Positions 13,427 to 28,191 of a stretch of 50,887 nucleotides of DNA are shown here, piece after piece. The notes beneath the pieces are model-generated. The model was not told where the DNA came from. It did not search any database and was given only the letters and a program-made list of their open reading frames with translations. Made by a program: the position numbers and the translations under genes. Each line of letters begins with the position of its first letter. Position 1 is the first letter of the stretch. The DNA is from a virus: positions 1 through 50,887 of the IMG/VR virus record IMGVR_UViG_3300035698_002459. The stretch is one strand, 5' to 3'.

Positions 13427-15502
13427 ATGAGACAACCAACAATTCTAAAGCGGAGAAGAAATAACCCGTATAATACAGCTTCCCCCCTTTATAAAAGGCT
13501 GACCAGACTATTAAGTGGTCCGATTACCAATTATAAACAGCAGAACATGAGAATTGGTCGAAAGAAAGATCTCGACAAATACAAGTTCAAATCTGCTAGT
13601 GGAAAAGCCTTCAAGAAAAGTGGTTCTTATAACCCGTTCAAAGAGATCCAGGCTGGCGCATTGGCGAATGCCTCTCGCGCAGAGCGATACATGGACTTTG
13701 ATCAGATGGAATTCACCTCTGAAATTGCCTCCGCTTTGGACATCTACGCTGACGAAATAACAACCTATACGCAATTTGCACCTCTTCTCAAGATTACATC
13801 TCCGAATCAAGAGATAACAGAAATCTTAGAGTTTCTTTTTTATGAAGTTCTAAACATTGAATTGAATGCACACGTTTGGACACGTACCGCATGTAAATAC
13901 GGAGACCTTTTCTTGTACCTCGATATAGACAACGAGAATGGAGTCACAAACGTAATTGGACTACCACCGGCAGAAGTTGAAAGACTTGAAGGCGAAGACC
14001 CCACCAATCCAGATTACGTCCAATTTCAGTGGAACGCCGGGGGCTTGACATTTGAGAACTGGCAAATTGCACACATTCGAATCCTTGGAAATGACAAGTA
14101 TGTTCCTTACGGTTCGTCTGTTCTGGAGGGCGCTCGGAGAATTTGGAAGCAGTTGAATCTTCTTGAGGACGCTGTGATGGCGTATCGTATTGTCAGATCT
14201 CCAGAAAGAAGAGTATTCAAGATCGACGTTGGAGGTATTGACCCTAAAGATGTACCCGCGTACATGGAGCAGGTTAGGACCGAACTGAAGAGAAATCAGA
14301 TTGTTGACCCCGATACTGGCCGAGTCGACCTGAGATATAATCCTCTTTCAATCGAAGAGGATTACTTCATCCCCGTAAGAAAGGGAGACTCATCCGAGAT
14401 CTCTACTCTTGCTGGTGGCAAGTACACTGGTGATATCGATGATATTAAATACTTTAGAGATAAGCTCTTTACTGCCCTAAAGATTCCAGCCTCGTATCTA
14501 TCTCAAGGAGATGGAACAGAGGAAAGGAGTTCTTTAGCTCAGAAAGATATTATGTTTGCAAGAACAATCTTGAGAATCCAAAGCACAATCTCTTCAGAAC
14601 TTAGAAAGGTTGCGATTATCCACCTTGCGACACTTGGATACAAAGGGAAGGACTTGCTCAATTTTGATCTGTCTTTCCATAATCCATCAAGAATCTCAGA
14701 ACTTCAAGAACTTGAATACATGAGAACCAAATTTGCGGTTGCCATCGAAGCAAAAGATCTATTCTCCGACTCTTGGATTTCTAAGAAAATCTTCGATATG
14801 TCAGATGACGAGATTATTAGAAATAGAATTGAGAAGTTTACCGATGTTAAGTTCGATGTATCTCTTGAGTCCTATCTGGAAACGGGTGGGGAGATGGATG
14901 CAATGGGCGGCATGGGCGGGGGCGGCATGGGTCCACCCGAGGGCTTGGCAGGGCCAGGCATGGACATGGGCGGGGCAGAAGGGGGCGCTGACGGGGCAGA
15001 TGGACCAGAGACCACCCTTGCATCCATTCCCACCGATGATGACATAGCAGCGCTGTCAGGCGAGCCACGCAAGGGCGCTTTGTCCAAGGTCCACGATGAC
15101 GCCAAGAGACAATCAAAGCCTTCAAAATTATCCACGCAACCTCAAGCAAGAGGAAAGGAACGTTCGAAGTTGAAGCCTGGACACGACAATAGACGCGCAG
15201 ATGGCCCACGACAAAGAACCAGAAAGGCTGCTGGTGGAGCATTCCTAGCGAACCCAAGTTTGGAAGATATTTTTGCAGGGATGAACAATGGCTTGCAGAA
15301 TTTGACCAAAAATGTATGGGAAGGAAAAGAGAAAACTGAGGAAGATATTGATGAAGCGATCTTACAAGAAATATCTTTAAGAATTAAAACTACATTAGCT
15401 GACAAAAAAGATCTAATTAATGAAAGAATCTCAGAGTTAAACAAAAATAACAGAGAGAAAAACGACACAATAGAGTTGGAAGCCGAATCTGATGATACAT
15501 AA
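13427..15502 (+). CDS. 20: Portal protein (gp20-like)
   Basis: The 691-residue protein matches T4-type portals throughout its first 480 residues. Examples are the crown/wing region with IEEDYFIPVRKGDSSE (about 309-324), KYFRDKLFTALKIP and QKDIMFARTILRIQS. Portals form the dodecameric channel through which TerL packs DNA. T4 gp20 is 524 aa; here about 200 residues are added at the C-terminus. That extension starts with a Gly/Met-rich, GC-rich stretch (about 487-525), then a basic linker, then a charged helical end. The 3' end overlaps the next gene by 11 bases. A segment of this protein is repeated as a separate mini-gene at 17043. Confidence 0.92.
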   Translation: MRQPTILKRRRNNPYNTASPLYKRLTRLLSGPITNYKQQNMRIGRKKDLDKYKFKSASGKAFKKSGSYNPFKEIQAGALANASRAERYMDFDQMEFTSEIASALDIYADEITTYTQFAPLLKITSPNQEITEILEFLFYEVLNIELNAHVWTRTACKYGDLFLYLDIDNENGVTNVIGLPPAEVERLEGEDPTNPDYVQFQWNAGGLTFENWQIAHIRILGNDKYVPYGSSVLEGARRIWKQLNLLEDAVMAYRIVRSPERRVFKIDVGGIDPKDVPAYMEQVRTELKRNQIVDPDTGRVDLRYNPLSIEEDYFIPVRKGDSSEISTLAGGKYTGDIDDIKYFRDKLFTALKIPASYLSQGDGTEERSSLAQKDIMFARTILRIQSTISSELRKVAIIHLATLGYKGKDLLNFDLSFHNPSRISELQELEYMRTKFAVAIEAKDLFSDSWISKKIFDMSDDEIIRNRIEKFTDVKFDVSLESYLETGGEMDAMGGMGGGGMGPPEGLAGPGMDMGGAEGGADGADGPETTLASIPTDDDIAALSGEPRKGALSKVHDDAKRQSKPSKLSTQPQARGKERSKLKPGHDNRRADGPRQRTRKAAGGAFLANPSLEDIFAGMNNGLQNLTKNVWEGKEKTEEDIDEAILQEISLRIKTTLADKKDLINERISELNKNNREKNDTIELEAESDDT

Positions 15503-16295
15503 CAAAAAGAGAAATACGAGATTTTTATTTGAAGTTCTTCTTAGGGAGTGGTCCGAGTCTTTTATAAAGAAGGACTACGAGAAGATTGAATCGATCAAGG
15601 AAGTCTTAAAGACTTTCTTCTATAAGAACTCTGTCCTGATTAGAGATCTTAAGCACTACAACAAGATGATGAATCTTGGCGTTAGTAAGGACAATCTTAG
15701 AATCGTACAAGAAATCAAGATAGGATATTCAAAACTAGATCAGAAAAGCATTTACTCAGAACAGACCAAACTGTTGTTCGAACTCAATAAGAACTTCGGC
15801 AAAAAGATATTTGGGCATTTTGTTCCCAAGTATCAAACCATCGCGTCCATCAATAAAATATTCAATTCTGACATCTCTCCAGAATCAAAGATTCAACTAG
15901 AGAACAAGCTTCTAGAAAACATTTCAGACCGCAAGTCTGATGAATTGGAGAAAACTGACAATCTCATATACCGAAAGTTTATCAAGAAGTTCAACGAGGA
16001 ATACAAGTTCCTGATTCCAGAACAGAAGGAGCTTATCAAAAGATATGTTTCTTCGTTTGATGACGGAGGAATTGATCTCGCTGTCTATCTAAATACTGAA
16101 GTGAAGAAGATTAAAGTAGAGTTGGGAACTTTACTTACTGACAATCCAGATGAAGTCTTAAAAGAAAAGATAACCGGCATTGTAGAGATGCTTGAGACTT
16201 GGGGAAGCAAGAAAATTCAACAACCCGAATTTGTTAAAATACTGAAAATACAGGGATTAATTAACGAATTGAGAGAGGATACTGCTGGTGATTAA
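15492..16295 (+). CDS. Uncharacterised helical head-module protein
   Basis: This 267-residue protein is almost entirely helical and highly charged (Lys/Glu-rich), with no cysteine and no membrane segment. It begins MIHNKKRNTRFLFEVLLREW. It overlaps the portal gene by 11 bases and the next gene by 8 bases, so it is translated with the head genes. Its position between portal and protease is where T4 has the small core proteins gp67 and gp68, but it is much longer than those. It could be a prohead core or assembly factor; no family recognised. Confidence 0.5.
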   Translation: MIHNKKRNTRFLFEVLLREWSESFIKKDYEKIESIKEVLKTFFYKNSVLIRDLKHYNKMMNLGVSKDNLRIVQEIKIGYSKLDQKSIYSEQTKLLFELNKNFGKKIFGHFVPKYQTIASINKIFNSDISPESKIQLENKLLENISDRKSDELEKTDNLIYRKFIKKFNEEYKFLIPEQKELIKRYVSSFDDGGIDLAVYLNTEVKKIKVELGTLLTDNPDEVLKEKITGIVEMLETWGSKKIQQPEFVKILKIQGLINELREDTAGD

Positions 16296-16812
16296 TGAAA
16301 AGAAATACGACGCGGTTGTAAAACTCAATACCGTATCTCTGGATATTAAGAAGACTCTTGACGGGAATATCATCATCTATGACCACCCGAAGATTCTCAT
16401 CATTGTATCTTGGAAAAACAATAAGATAATCACTCTACCCAAATTTGATTCTGATGAAGACGTCTACAATATGGAAAAGAGATACTTCGACTTCTTAGAA
16501 GAGAGAGGTCTTATCGAACTGGGGTCGGTTCAAGGCGGGGCAATGTATGCCAGTATAGAAGCCACAATCCCAGATTCCGAAGAGATGAAGGCTGTCGAGA
16601 CCATTATACAATCTACCGCTGAATTTCTTAAAGACGAAAAAGAAATGTTAAGCAACATAGATAACTACAAGGATGAGGTCGAAGATTGGATGCTCGATCC
16701 AAGCGACGAAGATTCCACAGAACTGGGAGAGGTTCCACACAGAGCAAAGAAGGGATCAATTCCTTCTAGACCGTTCGGCAAGTACGGCGGTTTTTACGGA
16801 TACTATTACTGA
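16288..16812 (+). CDS. Uncharacterised acidic head-module protein
   Basis: The 174-residue protein starts at a GTG overlapping the previous gene. Its N-terminal 60 residues are beta-rich (LDIKKTLDGNIIIYDHPKIL). A long acidic helical part follows, and it ends in a Gly/Tyr-rich tail (FGKYGGFYGYYY). Aromatic, glycine-rich tails of this kind are common in virion-associated proteins. Position in the portal-protease interval suggests a core or internal head protein. No homologue recognised. Confidence 0.5.
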   Translation: MINEKKYDAVVKLNTVSLDIKKTLDGNIIIYDHPKILIIVSWKNNKIITLPKFDSDEDVYNMEKRYFDFLEERGLIELGSVQGGAMYASIEATIPDSEEMKAVETIIQSTAEFLKDEKEMLSNIDNYKDEVEDWMLDPSDEDSTELGEVPHRAKKGSIPSRPFGKYGGFYGYYY

Positions 16813-16825
16813 GGGGTAAGACACT

Positions 16826-17056
16826 ATGAAGATTAAGATGCCGAAAGAGCAATTTGAAGCTATTTTAAAAGAAGAGATTGCAAAGTTTATCGAGGAAAAA
16901 ACTGACATTCACCTGGGTCCAGAAGATGGGTCAGGTAGCAGTATGCCAGGGATTGACCCAGAAGGTGGAGCGTCAAACGACTTCCACCAAATCCCTCCAG
17001 AGGATCTAAACCGACTACCAGAGGATGAAGAAGAAGGGACAGATGAAGAAGTATAG
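16826..17056 (+). CDS. Small acidic protein, positional analogue of prohead core gp67
   Basis: This 76-residue protein has a helical N-terminus (EQFEAILKEEIAKFIEEK) and an acidic, Pro/Gly-rich C-terminus ending in a Glu/Asp run. T4 gp67 is an 80-residue prohead core protein with an acidic tail, encoded between portal and protease genes. The analogy rests on size, charge and position, not on residue matches. The gene overlaps the portal mini-gene by 14 bases. Confidence 0.45.
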   Translation: MKIKMPKEQFEAILKEEIAKFIEEKTDIHLGPEDGSGSSMPGIDPEGGASNDFHQIPPEDLNRLPEDEEEGTDEEV

Positions 17057-17195
17057 CCCAATACAGATAGAAGAAGATTACTTCATCCCTGTTCGGAACA
17101 GAGACAGAACGTCCGCAGAAGACGTGGAGTATTTCAGAAACAAACTGTTCGACGCGTTGAAGATCCCAAAGAAATATTTGGAAGAGGAAGAATGA
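17043..17195 (+). CDS. Portal-fragment mini-gene (50 aa)
   Basis: ATG 17043 to TGA 17195 encodes 50 residues whose core, IEEDYFIPVR then VEYFRNKLFDALKIPKKYL, closely matches residues of about 309 to 360 of the portal protein encoded at 13427. The portal's loop between these two blocks is shortened by about a dozen residues. The frame is intact, starts and stops by overlap with both neighbours (14 bases upstream, 4 bases with the protease start), and has diverged at the DNA level from the portal copy. This suggests an old duplication that is maintained. Possible roles are a portal-interacting peptide or assembly regulator; it could also be a harmless remnant. Confidence 0.75.
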   Translation: MKKYSPIQIEEDYFIPVRNRDRTSAEDVEYFRNKLFDALKIPKKYLEEEE

Positions 17196-17827
17196 TGAAG
17201 AAGTTCCTGATCAGAGAGAATTTTATATTAGAAGGCAAAAATGTAAGAACAGATCTGCTTACGGAACAGGACCAGAGATTCATTGACCAAGGTGGAACCG
17301 TTCTTGCTGGAGTAATGCAAAGAGCAGATTCTATCAACGGGAATGGAAGAATATATTCCAGGTCACTCTTGGAGAGAGAGCTTGAAAACTATCAAGTTCT
17401 GATCCGAGAGAATCGAGCTTATGGAGAATTAGATCACCCAGAGTATGCAGAGATCAAGCTTGAGCATACTTCTCACAGAGTGACAGAGATTGGTTGGGAC
17501 GGGGATGATGTAGTGGGAAAGATTATGCTTGCCCCACATCCGAGTAAAGGTGCCATAGCCAAGGCGATACTAGATATTGGTGGGATAATAAGCATCTCGT
17601 CAAGAGGTCTCGGGTCGGTAACAAAGGAAGGGAATAGAACGGTTGTCAATGATGACTTCCAATTGATTTGCTTCGACCTTGTTACGGAGCCGTCCACAGA
17701 CAGGGCTCACATGATGAGAGAAATGAAAGAAATTGAAGTCGGAGATAAAACATATTTTCACATCTCTAAAGACCAAATACCAAAGAGTCATCGTATTTAC
17801 TCACTAATTGATGACATACTATTATAA
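17192..17827 (+). CDS. 21: Prohead maturation protease (gp21-like)
   Basis: The 211-residue protein matches the T4 gp21 serine protease family in length (T4: 212). It has GVMQRADSINGNGRIYS near 40, the catalytic His in GELDHPEYAE (His82) and the serine region IISISSRGLGS (Ser136/Ser137). It cleaves head proteins after Glu in an (L/I)xE context once the prohead is built. Candidate target sites are visible in the capsid protein and in the next gene's product. ATG 17192 overlaps the mini-gene stop; ATG 17195 is an alternative start. Confidence 0.92.
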   Translation: MMKKFLIRENFILEGKNVRTDLLTEQDQRFIDQGGTVLAGVMQRADSINGNGRIYSRSLLERELENYQVLIRENRAYGELDHPEYAEIKLEHTSHRVTEIGWDGDDVVGKIMLAPHPSKGAIAKAILDIGGIISISSRGLGSVTKEGNRTVVNDDFQLICFDLVTEPSTDRAHMMREMKEIEVGDKTYFHISKDQIPKSHRIYSLIDDILL

Positions 17828-18320: not shown

Positions 18321-18560
18321 GTGAGTTCAGTAGTAAATGTTGAAGTAAGAAGAAGAGAAAATGAACCGATCGAAAGACTGATCAAGAGATTCAAGAAGAA
18401 AGTCTACAAAAGCGAAGTTCTAAAAGACGCTGTTAAAAAGTCTCGCTTTCAGAAAAAGTCTGATAAACTCAGAGAAAAGAAAAGAGATGCAAAACGCCTC
18501 ATGGCGAAAAACGAACGAAAACAAAAAATACAAGAATTGAAAAGAAAAAGACGCAGATAA
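18321..18560 (+). CDS. rpsU: Ribosomal protein bS21 homologue
   Basis: The 79-residue, strongly basic protein matches bacterial bS21 along its length. It has VVNVEVRRRENEPIERLIKRF (compare the bacterial V-x-V-RENEP-x(6)-RRF pattern), then the helix KKKVYKSEVLKDAVKKSRF and the Lys/Arg-rich C-terminal helix. bS21 sits on the 30S platform beside the 3' end of 16S rRNA and affects start-site selection. A phage copy could replace the host protein and bias initiation. It starts at GTG one base after the previous stop and lies among head genes, so it is expected to be expressed late. Phage bS21 has been reported in other large phages. Confidence 0.85.
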   Translation: MSSVVNVEVRRRENEPIERLIKRFKKKVYKSEVLKDAVKKSRFQKKSDKLREKKRDAKRLMAKNERKQKIQELKRKRRR

Positions 18561-21499: not shown

Positions 21500-23320
21500 A
21501 TGTCTGATATTATGACACTTCTGTCTGAAAACGTCGTCATTCGCGACCGTAGAGTAGAAGTTACTAAGATTTCATCTTGGTGGGAGCAAACTGGTCTTCT
21601 AGAAGGACTAGCTGACAGAGACTCTCAGCAGGTTAAATCGAACATTGCGGTTCTCTTAGAGAACCAAAAGAACAACTTGAGAAAGGAATACTTGATCCGT
21701 GAGTCTAGTGCTATGGCTTCTGGTGACGTTACTGGCTTTGCAGCCGTTGCGTTCCCACTTGTCCGTCGTGTTTTCGCGAATCTGGTTGCTAATGAGCTTG
21801 TGTCCGTACAGCCGATGTCGCTCCCTACTGGCCTTATCTTCTACTTGGATTTCCAAGCTGGAACAAATAAGGGTGGAGTCGGCCTTGACCAAAACGCATC
21901 CATCTTCGGTGGTGGCGCTGTAGGTTCCGAGATCGCCCCTGGTATCAGCCTCGCTGGCACCAATGCCGATACTGGATTCTACAACCTTAACACTGGTTAT
22001 GCATCGCCGACTGGTTCTGGTTGGGTAGATGGTGGATATACCGTTCTTGTTTCTGGTACTGTTGGTTCCAACAGCGCCTACAGTTCGGTTCTTGATAAGG
22101 CAGTTAAGTATGACCCGGATCTTTCCGGTGCGTTCTGTGCTGTTGTATCTGTCCCACTTACCACCTTCCAGGGTAACGGAAACAACCTGAATGAGAGAGC
22201 GTATACCTCGATTAACGAAGTTTCGCTAACTGGTTCAGCTACTTCGGGAACTCTAGTCAGAAGACTTACTTCTAGACTAACTGGTTCGACTGGTCTTCCA
22301 AATTCCAGCAACCTTCTGATGGTCTTCTCATCGTCTCTCGCTCACGCGGCAGGCTTGGTAGACTCTGTCGGAACGCTTGGGGAAGAGAAGTTCATGGGAT
22401 CACTGACTGGTACGCTAGTTGATGGTGTCGGCGATTCTATCTCAAGAAAGCTTCTGTTTGCCATCGATGATCAATTCGCGCAGGGATCAGCCCTCGGTTC
22501 GACCATCGGTGACCCAGCATGGGGTCTAGAATTCGGTTCGAATGTTGGTGAGAACGCGGAAATACCGCAAATCGACATTCAAATTGATGCGACAGACATT
22601 ACAGCAATTACCAAGAAACTAAAGGCGCGTTGGACTCCTGAACTTGGTCAAGACCTGAATGCCTACCACAACTTGGATGCTGAAGTAGAACTTACTTCAA
22701 TTCTCTCAGAACTGATTTCCCTTGAAATCGATGTTGAGATTCTTGGAGACCTAGTTCGTCACGCTTCTGCGGGTACTTACTACTGGTCGCGTAGACCGGG
22801 TCGCTTCCTAAACCGTACTACGGGTGAGGTTCTTGCGGCGGCTCTTACTGGTGACTTCACTGGTAACGTCTCAGAGTGGTATCAAACTCTGCTAGAGACA
22901 ATCAATGATGTCTCTGCTCAGATTCACCGTAAGGTTCTGCGTGGTGGAGCGACGTTCATCGTCGCTTCTCCAGAAGTTGCAAACATCCTTGAGTTTACTC
23001 AAGCGTTTGTTGCTACTGTAACGCACGATACTGACTCGGCTGGTTCTGCTGGCGTGCTCAAGGCAGGTACACTGTCGAAGAAGTGGGATGTGTTCGTCAC
23101 ATCATACTTCCCTCGCAACTGTATCCTAGTCGGTCGTAAGGGGTCTTCGGCTCTTGAAACCGGTTATGTCTATGCTCCGTATGTGCCATTGCAAACAACT
23201 CCTGTTGTTCCCGATCCGGTAACCTTTGTTCTGAACAAGGGTGTCATGACTCGGTACGGCAAGAAGATTGTTCGCGCCGATATGTACGGTATCGTTGTTG
23301 TTCAAGACCTATTCGGCTAA
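21500..23320 (+). CDS. 23: Major capsid protein (gp23-like)
   Basis: The 606-residue protein matches T4 gp23. It shows VKSNIAVLLENQK near the N-terminus, FPLVRRVFANLVANELVSVQPM (the start of the HK97-like fold) and PTGLIFYLDFQ. In its C-terminal third it has YVYAPYVPLQTTPVV and RYGKKIVRADMYG. Residues 66-68 read IRE before SS, a plausible prohead-protease site close to the known T4 position (65). A strong GGAGGAATT ribosome site and a terminator directly after the gene fit very high late expression. It is longer than T4 gp23 (521 aa), with Gly/Ser-rich inserted loops between about 110 and 270. Confidence 0.95.
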   Translation: MSDIMTLLSENVVIRDRRVEVTKISSWWEQTGLLEGLADRDSQQVKSNIAVLLENQKNNLRKEYLIRESSAMASGDVTGFAAVAFPLVRRVFANLVANELVSVQPMSLPTGLIFYLDFQAGTNKGGVGLDQNASIFGGGAVGSEIAPGISLAGTNADTGFYNLNTGYASPTGSGWVDGGYTVLVSGTVGSNSAYSSVLDKAVKYDPDLSGAFCAVVSVPLTTFQGNGNNLNERAYTSINEVSLTGSATSGTLVRRLTSRLTGSTGLPNSSNLLMVFSSSLAHAAGLVDSVGTLGEEKFMGSLTGTLVDGVGDSISRKLLFAIDDQFAQGSALGSTIGDPAWGLEFGSNVGENAEIPQIDIQIDATDITAITKKLKARWTPELGQDLNAYHNLDAEVELTSILSELISLEIDVEILGDLVRHASAGTYYWSRRPGRFLNRTTGEVLAAALTGDFTGNVSEWYQTLLETINDVSAQIHRKVLRGGATFIVASPEVANILEFTQAFVATVTHDTDSAGSAGVLKAGTLSKKWDVFVTSYFPRNCILVGRKGSSALETGYVYAPYVPLQTTPVVPDPVTFVLNKGVMTRYGKKIVRADMYGIVVVQDLFG

Positions 23321-26337: not shown

Positions 26338-27276
26338 ATGACAACTGACAACACACATCCAGCTACGATAGAGAATATGGACTTTGCGATCTACGAATGG
26401 TTAGATGAGTACCTTGATTTATCTGTCAATACGAATTCTGGGATGAAAAAGATTCCTATTGTATTCTCTTCCCCGGAAAGAAGCTTCCTATCAAAAGATA
26501 AGCAAGGAATCAGAGATGAGTTCGGAACCTTGGTTTTCCCAATCATGTCGGTGGTTCGTAAAGATATACAAAAACCAAATGTCAGAAGAGGAAATATGGG
26601 GGTTAACAAGTGGCCCAATCCAGATCACAAGAAAGGTTCCATTGTGATCAACAGAAAAATAAATCAAGACAAAAGCAGGGATAGAGCAAACGCCAGTTCT
26701 TTGAAACTTCACAGCGCATTAAATCATCCAAGGAAAAATTCAAAAGTCGTTTATGAAACGTGGATTATACCACAACCCGTAAACATAGAAATTCCGTATA
26801 CGATCACGATCAAAACAGAATTCCGCAAACAAATGAACACGGCGATATCTTCTTTCATGAGTAGGATTGGAAATATCAATTCGTTTTACCTTGAGCGTAA
26901 CGGGCACAGGTATGAAGCATTTGTTGATGAGAGTTTTTTATCAGACAACAACTCGGATAATTTAGAATCATCTGAACGAGCTTTTGAAACTAAAATTACA
27001 ATAACCGTTATTGGATACATAATTGGAGAAGGGACAAACCAAAGAACCCCAAATGTAATTAAACGAGAAAATTGGACAGATCTCGCAGTCAAAGAATATA
27101 TTGGAACAGGCGGAAGTGAATTCTCAACGGAGGACGACTTAAGAGTCCAGTACGTCCCTGCAACAGTTTCAGTCTCCAATTTGGTAGTTGCCACAGATGG
27201 ATCATTAGTGTTCACATTTTCACAACCAATGGACACTTACAGCGTAGAACAAAACTTCCTCTTAAGGAAAGTCTAG
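26338..27276 (+). CDS. Tail-completion/neck-like protein (gp15 type) with truncated Ig-like C-terminus
   Basis: The first 250 or so of 312 residues contain IPIVFSSPERSFLSKDK and RDEFGTLVFPIMSVVRKD, then WIIPQPVNIEIPYTITI and ITVIGYIIGEG. This order is typical of proteins that cap the tail tube in T4-type phages (gp15-like). Near the C-terminus a separate domain begins: NLVVATDGSLVFTFSQPMD is the first half of a Big_5/SbsA-type Ig-like domain. The protein stops at TAG 27274-27276 before the domain is complete. The missing half is encoded directly downstream in the -1 frame. Confidence 0.45.
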   Translation: MTTDNTHPATIENMDFAIYEWLDEYLDLSVNTNSGMKKIPIVFSSPERSFLSKDKQGIRDEFGTLVFPIMSVVRKDIQKPNVRRGNMGVNKWPNPDHKKGSIVINRKINQDKSRDRANASSLKLHSALNHPRKNSKVVYETWIIPQPVNIEIPYTITIKTEFRKQMNTAISSFMSRIGNINSFYLERNGHRYEAFVDESFLSDNNSDNLESSERAFETKITITVIGYIIGEGTNQRTPNVIKRENWTDLAVKEYIGTGGSEFSTEDDLRVQYVPATVSVSNLVVATDGSLVFTFSQPMDTYSVEQNFLLRKV

Positions 27277-27452
27277 TGTCAGTTTCTGGCAGTTTCGCAT
27301 GGTCAGAAGATTTGACCGAAATGACATTTACACCTGTTCAAGAGCTTGTAACTGGATCATATGAGGCCAAACTTGGTTATTTAACATCTGGAATTGATGG
27401 GTATAGATTGGTAGGGGATAATCACTTTGATTTTGAAGTCGAGAATACTTGA
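27276..27452 (+). CDS. C-terminal half of Ig-like (Big_5) domain, small ORF
   Basis: GTG 27276 overlaps the stop of the preceding gene (TAGTG) and leads to a 58-residue product. It starts SVSGSFAWSEDLTEMTFTP, continues with ELVTGSYEAKLGYLTSG, and ends HFDFEVENT. These match the second half of a Big_5 Ig-like domain (the ltftP-x-x-x-L-x-x-G-x-Y pattern). It fits onto the C-terminus of the preceding protein in the -1 frame. Either termination-reinitiation makes a separate peptide, or a frameshift makes one complete domain. Confidence 0.55.
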   Translation: MSVSGSFAWSEDLTEMTFTPVQELVTGSYEAKLGYLTSGIDGYRLVGDNHFDFEVENT

Positions 27453-27484: not shown

Positions 27485-27871
27485 ATGGCAGGAATTACAA
27501 ATTACTTTGCATCACAATCGCTAGGTTGGCAACTAACGGGGGACTCTGTAACAAGACCCACGGCTTGGTATCTAGGACTTGCACAAACGAATGCATCTGA
27601 TGATGACATGACCGGGTTTGTAGAGGTTTCTGCTTCTGGTTATACCAGACAAACGGCAAGTTTCTCTATAACTGGTAGTTCAACTGGAAGCTTACCCACA
27701 TCGGTAAGCTTCGGTCCTTTGGGTGCAGGCACTGTTGTTTCTGGCGTATCAATTTGGGACGATCCTACTGCTGGAAACTGTTTATACCATAATGCGGGAA
27801 CTCCGATTTCATCATCTAGTGGTTCATATATTACTCTACCAACAAGTAGTTTCTTTATCAAGGCAGAATAA
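27485..27871 (+). CDS. Fibre-like structural protein
   Basis: The 128-residue protein has a pattern shared by many small phage surface proteins. It starts with GITNYFASQSLGWQLTG, then has TAWYLGLAQTNASDDDMTGFVEVSASGYTRQTA and later VSFGPLGAGTVVSGVSIWDD and a final strand YITLPTSSFFI. It is a beta-sandwich unit, found alone or at the ends of tail fibres. The stop overlaps the following ATG (TAATG). A virion surface role is likely, the exact place unknown. Confidence 0.55.
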   Translation: MAGITNYFASQSLGWQLTGDSVTRPTAWYLGLAQTNASDDDMTGFVEVSASGYTRQTASFSITGSSTGSLPTSVSFGPLGAGTVVSGVSIWDDPTAGNCLYHNAGTPISSSSGSYITLPTSSFFIKAE

Positions 27872-28191
27872 TGTCAATTTCTGGCAGCTTCCAATGGTCT
27901 GAGGACCAAACTGAAATGATCTTCACACCCTCTAGCGAACTAGAGAATGGTGAATTATATTCGGCCATATTTGGATTTGAAGCTGCTACTACAGGTCAAG
28001 GAAGATTACTTAACAGAGGTGCATTTTATTACACCGCGTTTGATCCAATCATCGACTTCGATGGATTTATATCCAGCCTTTCAAGTTTAAGCTACGATTC
28101 TCAGCATAGTAAGAGAATTGGTAGCACGATTACCACATCTCACGATGTGACATATTCTTTAACAGAAACAATCCCCAGCGGTCCCGCCTAG
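27871..28191 (+). CDS. Ig-like-half paralogue with extended C-terminus
   Basis: The 106-residue product begins SISGSFQWSEDQTEMIFTP, almost the same as the ORF at 27276, and its DNA is visibly similar over about 60 bases. It also starts at a stop/start overlap (TAATG) and is in the -1 frame relative to the gene before it. After the Ig-like half (about residue 35) the sequence is different and Ser/Thr-rich. It appears to be a duplicated module that has gained another C-terminus. Confidence 0.5.
   Translation: MSISGSFQWSEDQTEMIFTPSSELENGELYSAIFGFEAATTGQGRLLNRGAFYYTAFDPIIDFDGFISSLSSLSYDSQHSKRIGSTITTSHDVTYSLTETIPSGPA

Follow-up and report, generated by a model that had tools for sequence, protein, structure and literature searches.

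A 50-residue portal-derived open reading frame in the prohead operon of a T4-like virus

Introduction

Why should a virus that encodes a portal protein also encode one piece of it in a separate short frame? The locus that raises this question lies in IMG/VR record IMGVR_UViG_3300035698_002459, which comes from a T4-like virus of bacteria and was analysed here over its whole length of 50,887 nucleotides (the window). An initial sequence-only reading, made without database searches, had described a free-standing 50-amino-acid copy of a portal segment just before the protease gene and had suggested that the peptide is maintained. The genes that bear on its identity are the following.

13427-15502, plus strand: T4-like portal protein gene (gp20 homologue, 691 aa), paralogue of the mini-gene; matches Portal_T4 with E 1.3e-75, and the best Foldseek hits of its model are T4 gp20 chains; the copied region, residues 303-360, lies at 14333-14506.
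15492-16295, plus strand: conserved 267-aa head-operon ORF between portal and protease, with homologues in relatives.
16288-16812, plus strand: 174-aa head-operon ORF, conserved in relatives.
16826-17056, plus strand: 76-aa acidic ORF, a putative prohead-core protein, whose N-terminus MKIKMPKEQFEAILKEEI is like a motif shared by small ORFs at the same position in relatives.
17043-17195, plus strand: 50-aa portal-fragment gene (mini-portal ORF, here the mini-gene), comprising a clip strand and inner clip loop (residues 3-22), stem helix alpha-7 and the start of the tunnel loop (residues 24-46), and an acidic tail, EEEE.
17192-17827, plus strand: prohead core serine protease gene (Peptidase_S77, gp21 homologue), whose start overlaps the mini-gene stop (ATGA).

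Results

The mini-gene reads without interruption as 50 codons, for MKKYSPIQIEEDYFIPVRNRDRTSAEDVEYFRNKLFDALKIPKKYLEEEE, followed by a stop codon. As the sequence-only reading had it, this intact frame overlaps both neighbours: it shares 14 nt with the upstream 76-aa ORF, which ends at 17056, and 4 nt (ATGA) with the start of the protease gene at 17192. A further in-frame start codon lies at 17025, but the purine-rich ribosome-binding stretch ahead of the ATG at 17043, GAAGGG, has the better spacing. In its codon usage the mini-gene is like the window as a whole, and no promoter or terminator scored above chance near the mini-gene on the plus strand. The terminal codons, GAAGAGGAAGA, are also the purine-rich ribosome-binding stretch of the protease gene. 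This double use could mean that the sequence is kept for translational coupling or as the protease ribosome-binding site, the peptide itself being irrelevant. Such a role in cis would explain only the 3' end, whereas portal-like codons 5-46 are held at the amino-acid level with free synonymous change; nor is the RNA unusually structured when compared with shuffled sequence (z -0.78), a value on which a structured RNA element or other RNA-level role was rejected. We consider a purely cis-acting function very unlikely.

The relationship to the portal is supported by several searches. The mini-gene matches the Pfam family Portal_T4 (PF07230) with an E-value of 8.7e-9 and 35.1 bits, above the curated cut-off of 22.9 and hence as a member of the sequence family, although the match spans only profile positions 248-307 of 433; it matches the PHROG family phrog_213 with an E-value of 2.3e-8 and, by blastp within the window, portal residues 303-360 with an E-value of 2e-12. 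Its own record contains two matching places only, the mini-gene itself and that portal segment at 14333-14506. A search of PDB sequences with the 50-aa peptide returned nothing meaningful. Aligned with its own portal, the mini-gene is identical at 27 of 44 residues and carries a 12-residue (36-nt) deletion. The two blocks that had been seen as repeated around a shortened loop are indeed present in both proteins: IEEDYFIPVR is identical at 10/10 positions, the second block reads YFR(N/D)KLF(D/T)ALKIP..YL, and the loop is 12 residues shorter in the mini-gene. The DNA has drifted from the portal copy, again as the reading had stated, with 56 of 132 aligned nucleotides differing, only 11 of 44 codons identical, and a different synonymous codon at 16 of the 27 conserved residues. 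Chance similarity is ruled out by the E-values (Pfam 8.7e-9, blastp 2e-12), and an assembly artefact by the number of nucleotide differences. What lies in the prohead operon is thus a genuine ORF with an intact frame, derived from the portal and a paralogue of the portal gene.

The portion of the portal that has been kept was located by aligning the window portal to T4 gp20 and transferring the numbering, with domain limits taken from PMC4493910; the T4 residues R338, K342 and T349 in the alignment agree with the numbering of that paper. In T4 gp20 the clip comprises residues 279-358, the inner clip loop contains R338 and K342, the channel loop (350-359) narrows the channel around the DNA, stem helix alpha-7 spans 359-377 and the tunnel loop spans 374-398 (PMC4493910). 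Residues 3-22 of the mini-gene correspond to about 324-343 of gp20 and residues 24-46 to about 358-380. By this alignment the first part of the peptide is one clip beta-strand with its inner clip loop, and the second part is helix alpha-7 running into the beginning of the tunnel loop; the 12 missing residues (about 323-334 of the window portal) correspond to the clip strand that comes next and to most of the channel loop, which contacts the DNA. In a predicted structure of the window portal, with a mean pLDDT of 64.5 and values of mostly 70-95 in the core, a strand lies at 313-317, a second at 324-329 and a helix at 337-351, in the same order as the T4 alignment. In the T4 portal neighbouring subunits share the three-stranded sheet of the clip, one contributing a single strand and the other contributing two, and no other inter-subunit contact is made through main-chain hydrogen bonds; we equate the strand of the peptide with this sheet in general and not with a particular one of its three strands. 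Modelled as a free peptide, the mini-gene product has a helix of moderate confidence at residues 25-38 and a poorly ordered N-terminal half (mean pLDDT 70.6), and in this prediction the disordered strand half looks as expected for a piece that needs a partner. The resemblance to T4 gp20 is therefore one of sequence homology over a clip strand, the inner clip loop and stem helix alpha-7. Unlike gp20, with its approximately 520 residues, the 50-residue peptide has only one clip strand and helix alpha-7; the wing, the crown, the alpha-5 stem helix and the remaining clip strands are absent, as is most of the channel loop, and the peptide would form no ring channel alone. It falls short of a functional portal, which needs a wing, two stem helices, a complete clip and both channel and tunnel loops to build a dodecameric channel.

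Related genomes were searched for a second stand-alone copy. By tblastn against 50,697 named phage records, a match was obtained in 1,026 records, at exactly one place in each; among the matches listed, the annotated functions are portal genes, and in none of the 1,026 was there a second copy. About 330 IMG/VR loci, gathered by four kinds of query (protease, portal, mini-peptide and a DNA pattern), contained no other stand-alone copy, and a profile of the segment found no match in the portal-protease gap of some 185 loci. DNA patterns built from the two blocks and the shortened loop had no genuine occurrence in IMG/VR or among 84,980 species genomes (GTDB); one gapped-pattern match in IMG/VR (L332) is out of frame, contains stops and was rejected as chance, and the gapped pattern had no match with the other Asp codon or in the GTDB genomes. 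In 22 whole records only portals were found, apart from one chance match, a weak second one in Flavobacterium phage immuto that falls within a gene annotated as a hydrolase. The sequence-only reading had proposed a search of related phages for the same mini-gene; the relatives covered, among the named records and the IMG/VR loci, are distant ones. For even the nearest, identity is about 65% in the portal core and does not exceed 54% in the protease; all are without the mini-gene and have a different neighbourhood at that place. Absence from relatives here means absence from distant relatives; records very near the window may also be left out of the searched set. With no orthologous stand-alone gene in the phages searched, the mini-gene does not form a conserved phage gene family, and we found no published report of a stand-alone portal-fragment gene in the open-licence literature. 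It is apparently a lineage-specific, selected portal-fragment gene. Among the gathered loci, the portal homologues of L048, L049 and L050 (also L334) lie inside very long frames of 1,387-1,573 aa, which suggests fusion with an extra domain.

Is the peptide held by selection? Compared with its own portal, the mini-gene has a pN of 0.24 with pS saturated (NG86) and a pN/pS of 0.21 (0.12-0.33). A codon model gives an omega of about 0.06 and rejects omega=1 (2dlnL 36.4), and a neutral mini-gene is rejected by 2dlnL 21.2 if both copies spent equal time in one genome (shared-lineage clock). The shared-clock test assumes a duplication inside the lineage, and the constraint signal is conditional on such an origin. 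The dN/dS comparison envisaged in the sequence-only reading thus came out on the side of selection under that condition; as to its maintained portal-derived peptide, the derivation stands and is joined by saturated synonymous divergence with held residues, and the maintenance is as conditional as the test. At conserved residues, changes of synonymous codon number 16, against 16.1 expected for independent codons. Portals are at least 95% constant at 23 of the positions compared, and the mini-gene has changed at 5 of these, so that constraint appears looser than on the portal. Selection on the peptide is, then, supported but conditional.

The condition turns on where the copy came from. In a tree of 44 columns the mini-gene pairs with its own portal (SH-aLRT 91.5), a grouping that is not decisive given the number of columns and the long mini-gene branch; the own-portal branch has zero length. 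The mini-gene and its own portal share the residues YFR; the corresponding residues are YLR in 98% of 277 relatives, and the three outgroup portals that are nearer also show YL. Overall similarity fails as proof of this origin, with 29/48 identities to the own portal and 30/48 to the best other portal. An own-portal origin is favoured only by the tree and the YFR residue, and is likewise supported but conditional.

The same data accommodate a different history, in which a portal fragment of a diverged sister phage was inserted by recombination fairly recently and is a neutral leftover, its conservation reflecting past selection on the donor portal. A diverged donor would explain synonymous divergence equal to that of unrelated codons (16 vs 16.1) without any time spent in this genome; several portal-invariant residues are changed in the mini-gene, which is absent from all relatives searched; and neutral drift of 0.1-0.2 substitutions per site would leave the frame open 50-67% of the time. 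Against this, the tree and YFR point to the own portal lineage, with its zero-length branch, the frame fits neatly between its neighbours through the 14-nt and ATGA overlaps, the deletion is a clean in-frame removal of one structural unit, and omega=1 is rejected under the same-genome clock. We regard this history as the main rival to the portal-contact role proposed below and as about equally probable, each well short of even.

The neighbourhood offers a further reading. Downstream of the protease gene lie other head genes, up to a gp23-type capsid protein at 21500; in relatives the usual occupants of the portal-protease gap are a small protein predicted to be a membrane protein and a group of small ORFs. 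Many of the latter (e.g. L081, L098, L135, L172) share the N-terminal motif MKITK..LK.IIKEEL, often followed by LxE-like sites, and could from their sequences be a cargo family delivered in the head. This motif, present with I/LxE-like sites in the 76-aa ORF and the ORFs of relatives, presumably resembles that of T4 capsid-targeted proteins (CTS). No relatives of the 76-aa ORF were confirmed in IMG/VR. In T4 the core genes 67 and 68 sit between the portal and protease genes. Prohead core roles of their products are described in PMC9958956. The mini-gene occupies the corresponding position, and the preceding ORF and many ORFs of relatives there share the N-terminal motif followed by I/LxE-like sites, so the peptide could be a lesser component of the prohead core or of the structure, incorporated at the portal vertex or in the core and removed or processed by the protease. 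However, the short amphipathic T4 CTS-like targeting motif is absent from the N-terminus of the mini-gene, which has no sequence relation to gp67 or gp68, and its I/L-x-E triplets (IEE, LEE) are short enough for chance, IEE occurring also in the portal. A minor structural or core component is an improbable identity for the peptide.

Two further features of the window were recorded. A 79-aa homologue of ribosomal protein bS21 is encoded at 18321-18560 in the head operon (Pfam E 5e-9), and in Microcystis phage Mel-JY01 an annotated RpsU likewise follows the protease, in the equivalent position. Two small ORFs of the tail region, 27276-27452 and 27871-28191, lie on either side of a gene that has a Gp80-like domain; they are paralogues of each other (45% over 53 aa) and the only other clear protein duplication within the window.

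Discussion

We tentatively propose that part of the portal gene was duplicated in the lineage of this phage and came to lie after the small head genes and ahead of the protease gene, that the duplicated piece lost a 36-nt stretch (one clip strand and most of the channel loop), and that the remainder became an independent 50-residue gene, still under selection, whose product caps or competes for portal contacts. Because the mini-gene overlaps both neighbours, it would probably be translated by coupling with them, at the time of prohead assembly. One clip strand and alpha-7 are kept and lining of the DNA channel is not possible, so the peptide may pair up with complete portal subunits, or with some partner by which the same piece of the portal is recognised, and so serve as a transient cap or competitor while portal rings form or proheads are initiated. 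Weighing against this account are the occurrence of the mini-gene in a single record, its looser constraint, the disordered strand half of the modelled free peptide, and the short alignment and long mini-gene branch of the tree.

Judged from the sequence, the likeliest role of the peptide is to compete for portal contacts or to cap them, at a confidence well short of even. Competition of this kind was among the possibilities named in the sequence-only reading; it is plausible, and it is made specific by the kept strand of the clip, the domain whose sheet neighbouring T4 subunits share, and by the absence of most of the channel loop. A stronger form, in which the peptide is dedicated to regulating assembly, capping the clip contact between subunits or competing there before prohead initiation or while it proceeds, so that a fragment of the portal controls portal assembly, seems to us rather unlikely. 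A weapon against competitors is conceivable too: a dominant-negative portal fragment could poison the rings of co-infecting relatives and be tolerated by the virus's own portal, which has YFR rather than YLR. Hundreds of related portals carry the kept block in identical or almost identical form, but the idea is purely inferential and late head-operon placement is not typical of exclusion genes; we think it extremely unlikely.

For the proposed capping or competing peptide there are partial parallels. In T4, peptide 288-311 of gp20 binds the packaging motor gp17 and inhibits packaging, according to the passage of PMC4493910 that cites this work. By analogy it may serve as a precedent for activity of free clip pieces, as a piece of the portal clip able to act alone, although in that account it is a synthetic laboratory peptide from another part of the clip and not a gene. 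Duplication of one head gene to give another also has a counterpart, T4 gp24, the vertex protein, being a paralogue of the major capsid protein gp23; gp24, however, is a whole-gene paralogue with a known structural place, whereas the mini-gene is a short portal fragment.

How portal rings reach exactly twelve subunits, with one ring per head, is a long-standing question. Even as a neutral leftover, the mini-gene would clearly exemplify the duplication of a head-gene fragment in T4-like phages. If the proposed account is true, a natural, separately expressed piece of the portal that carries part of the inter-subunit contact domain and is without the channel loop would be a tool to probe ring assembly.
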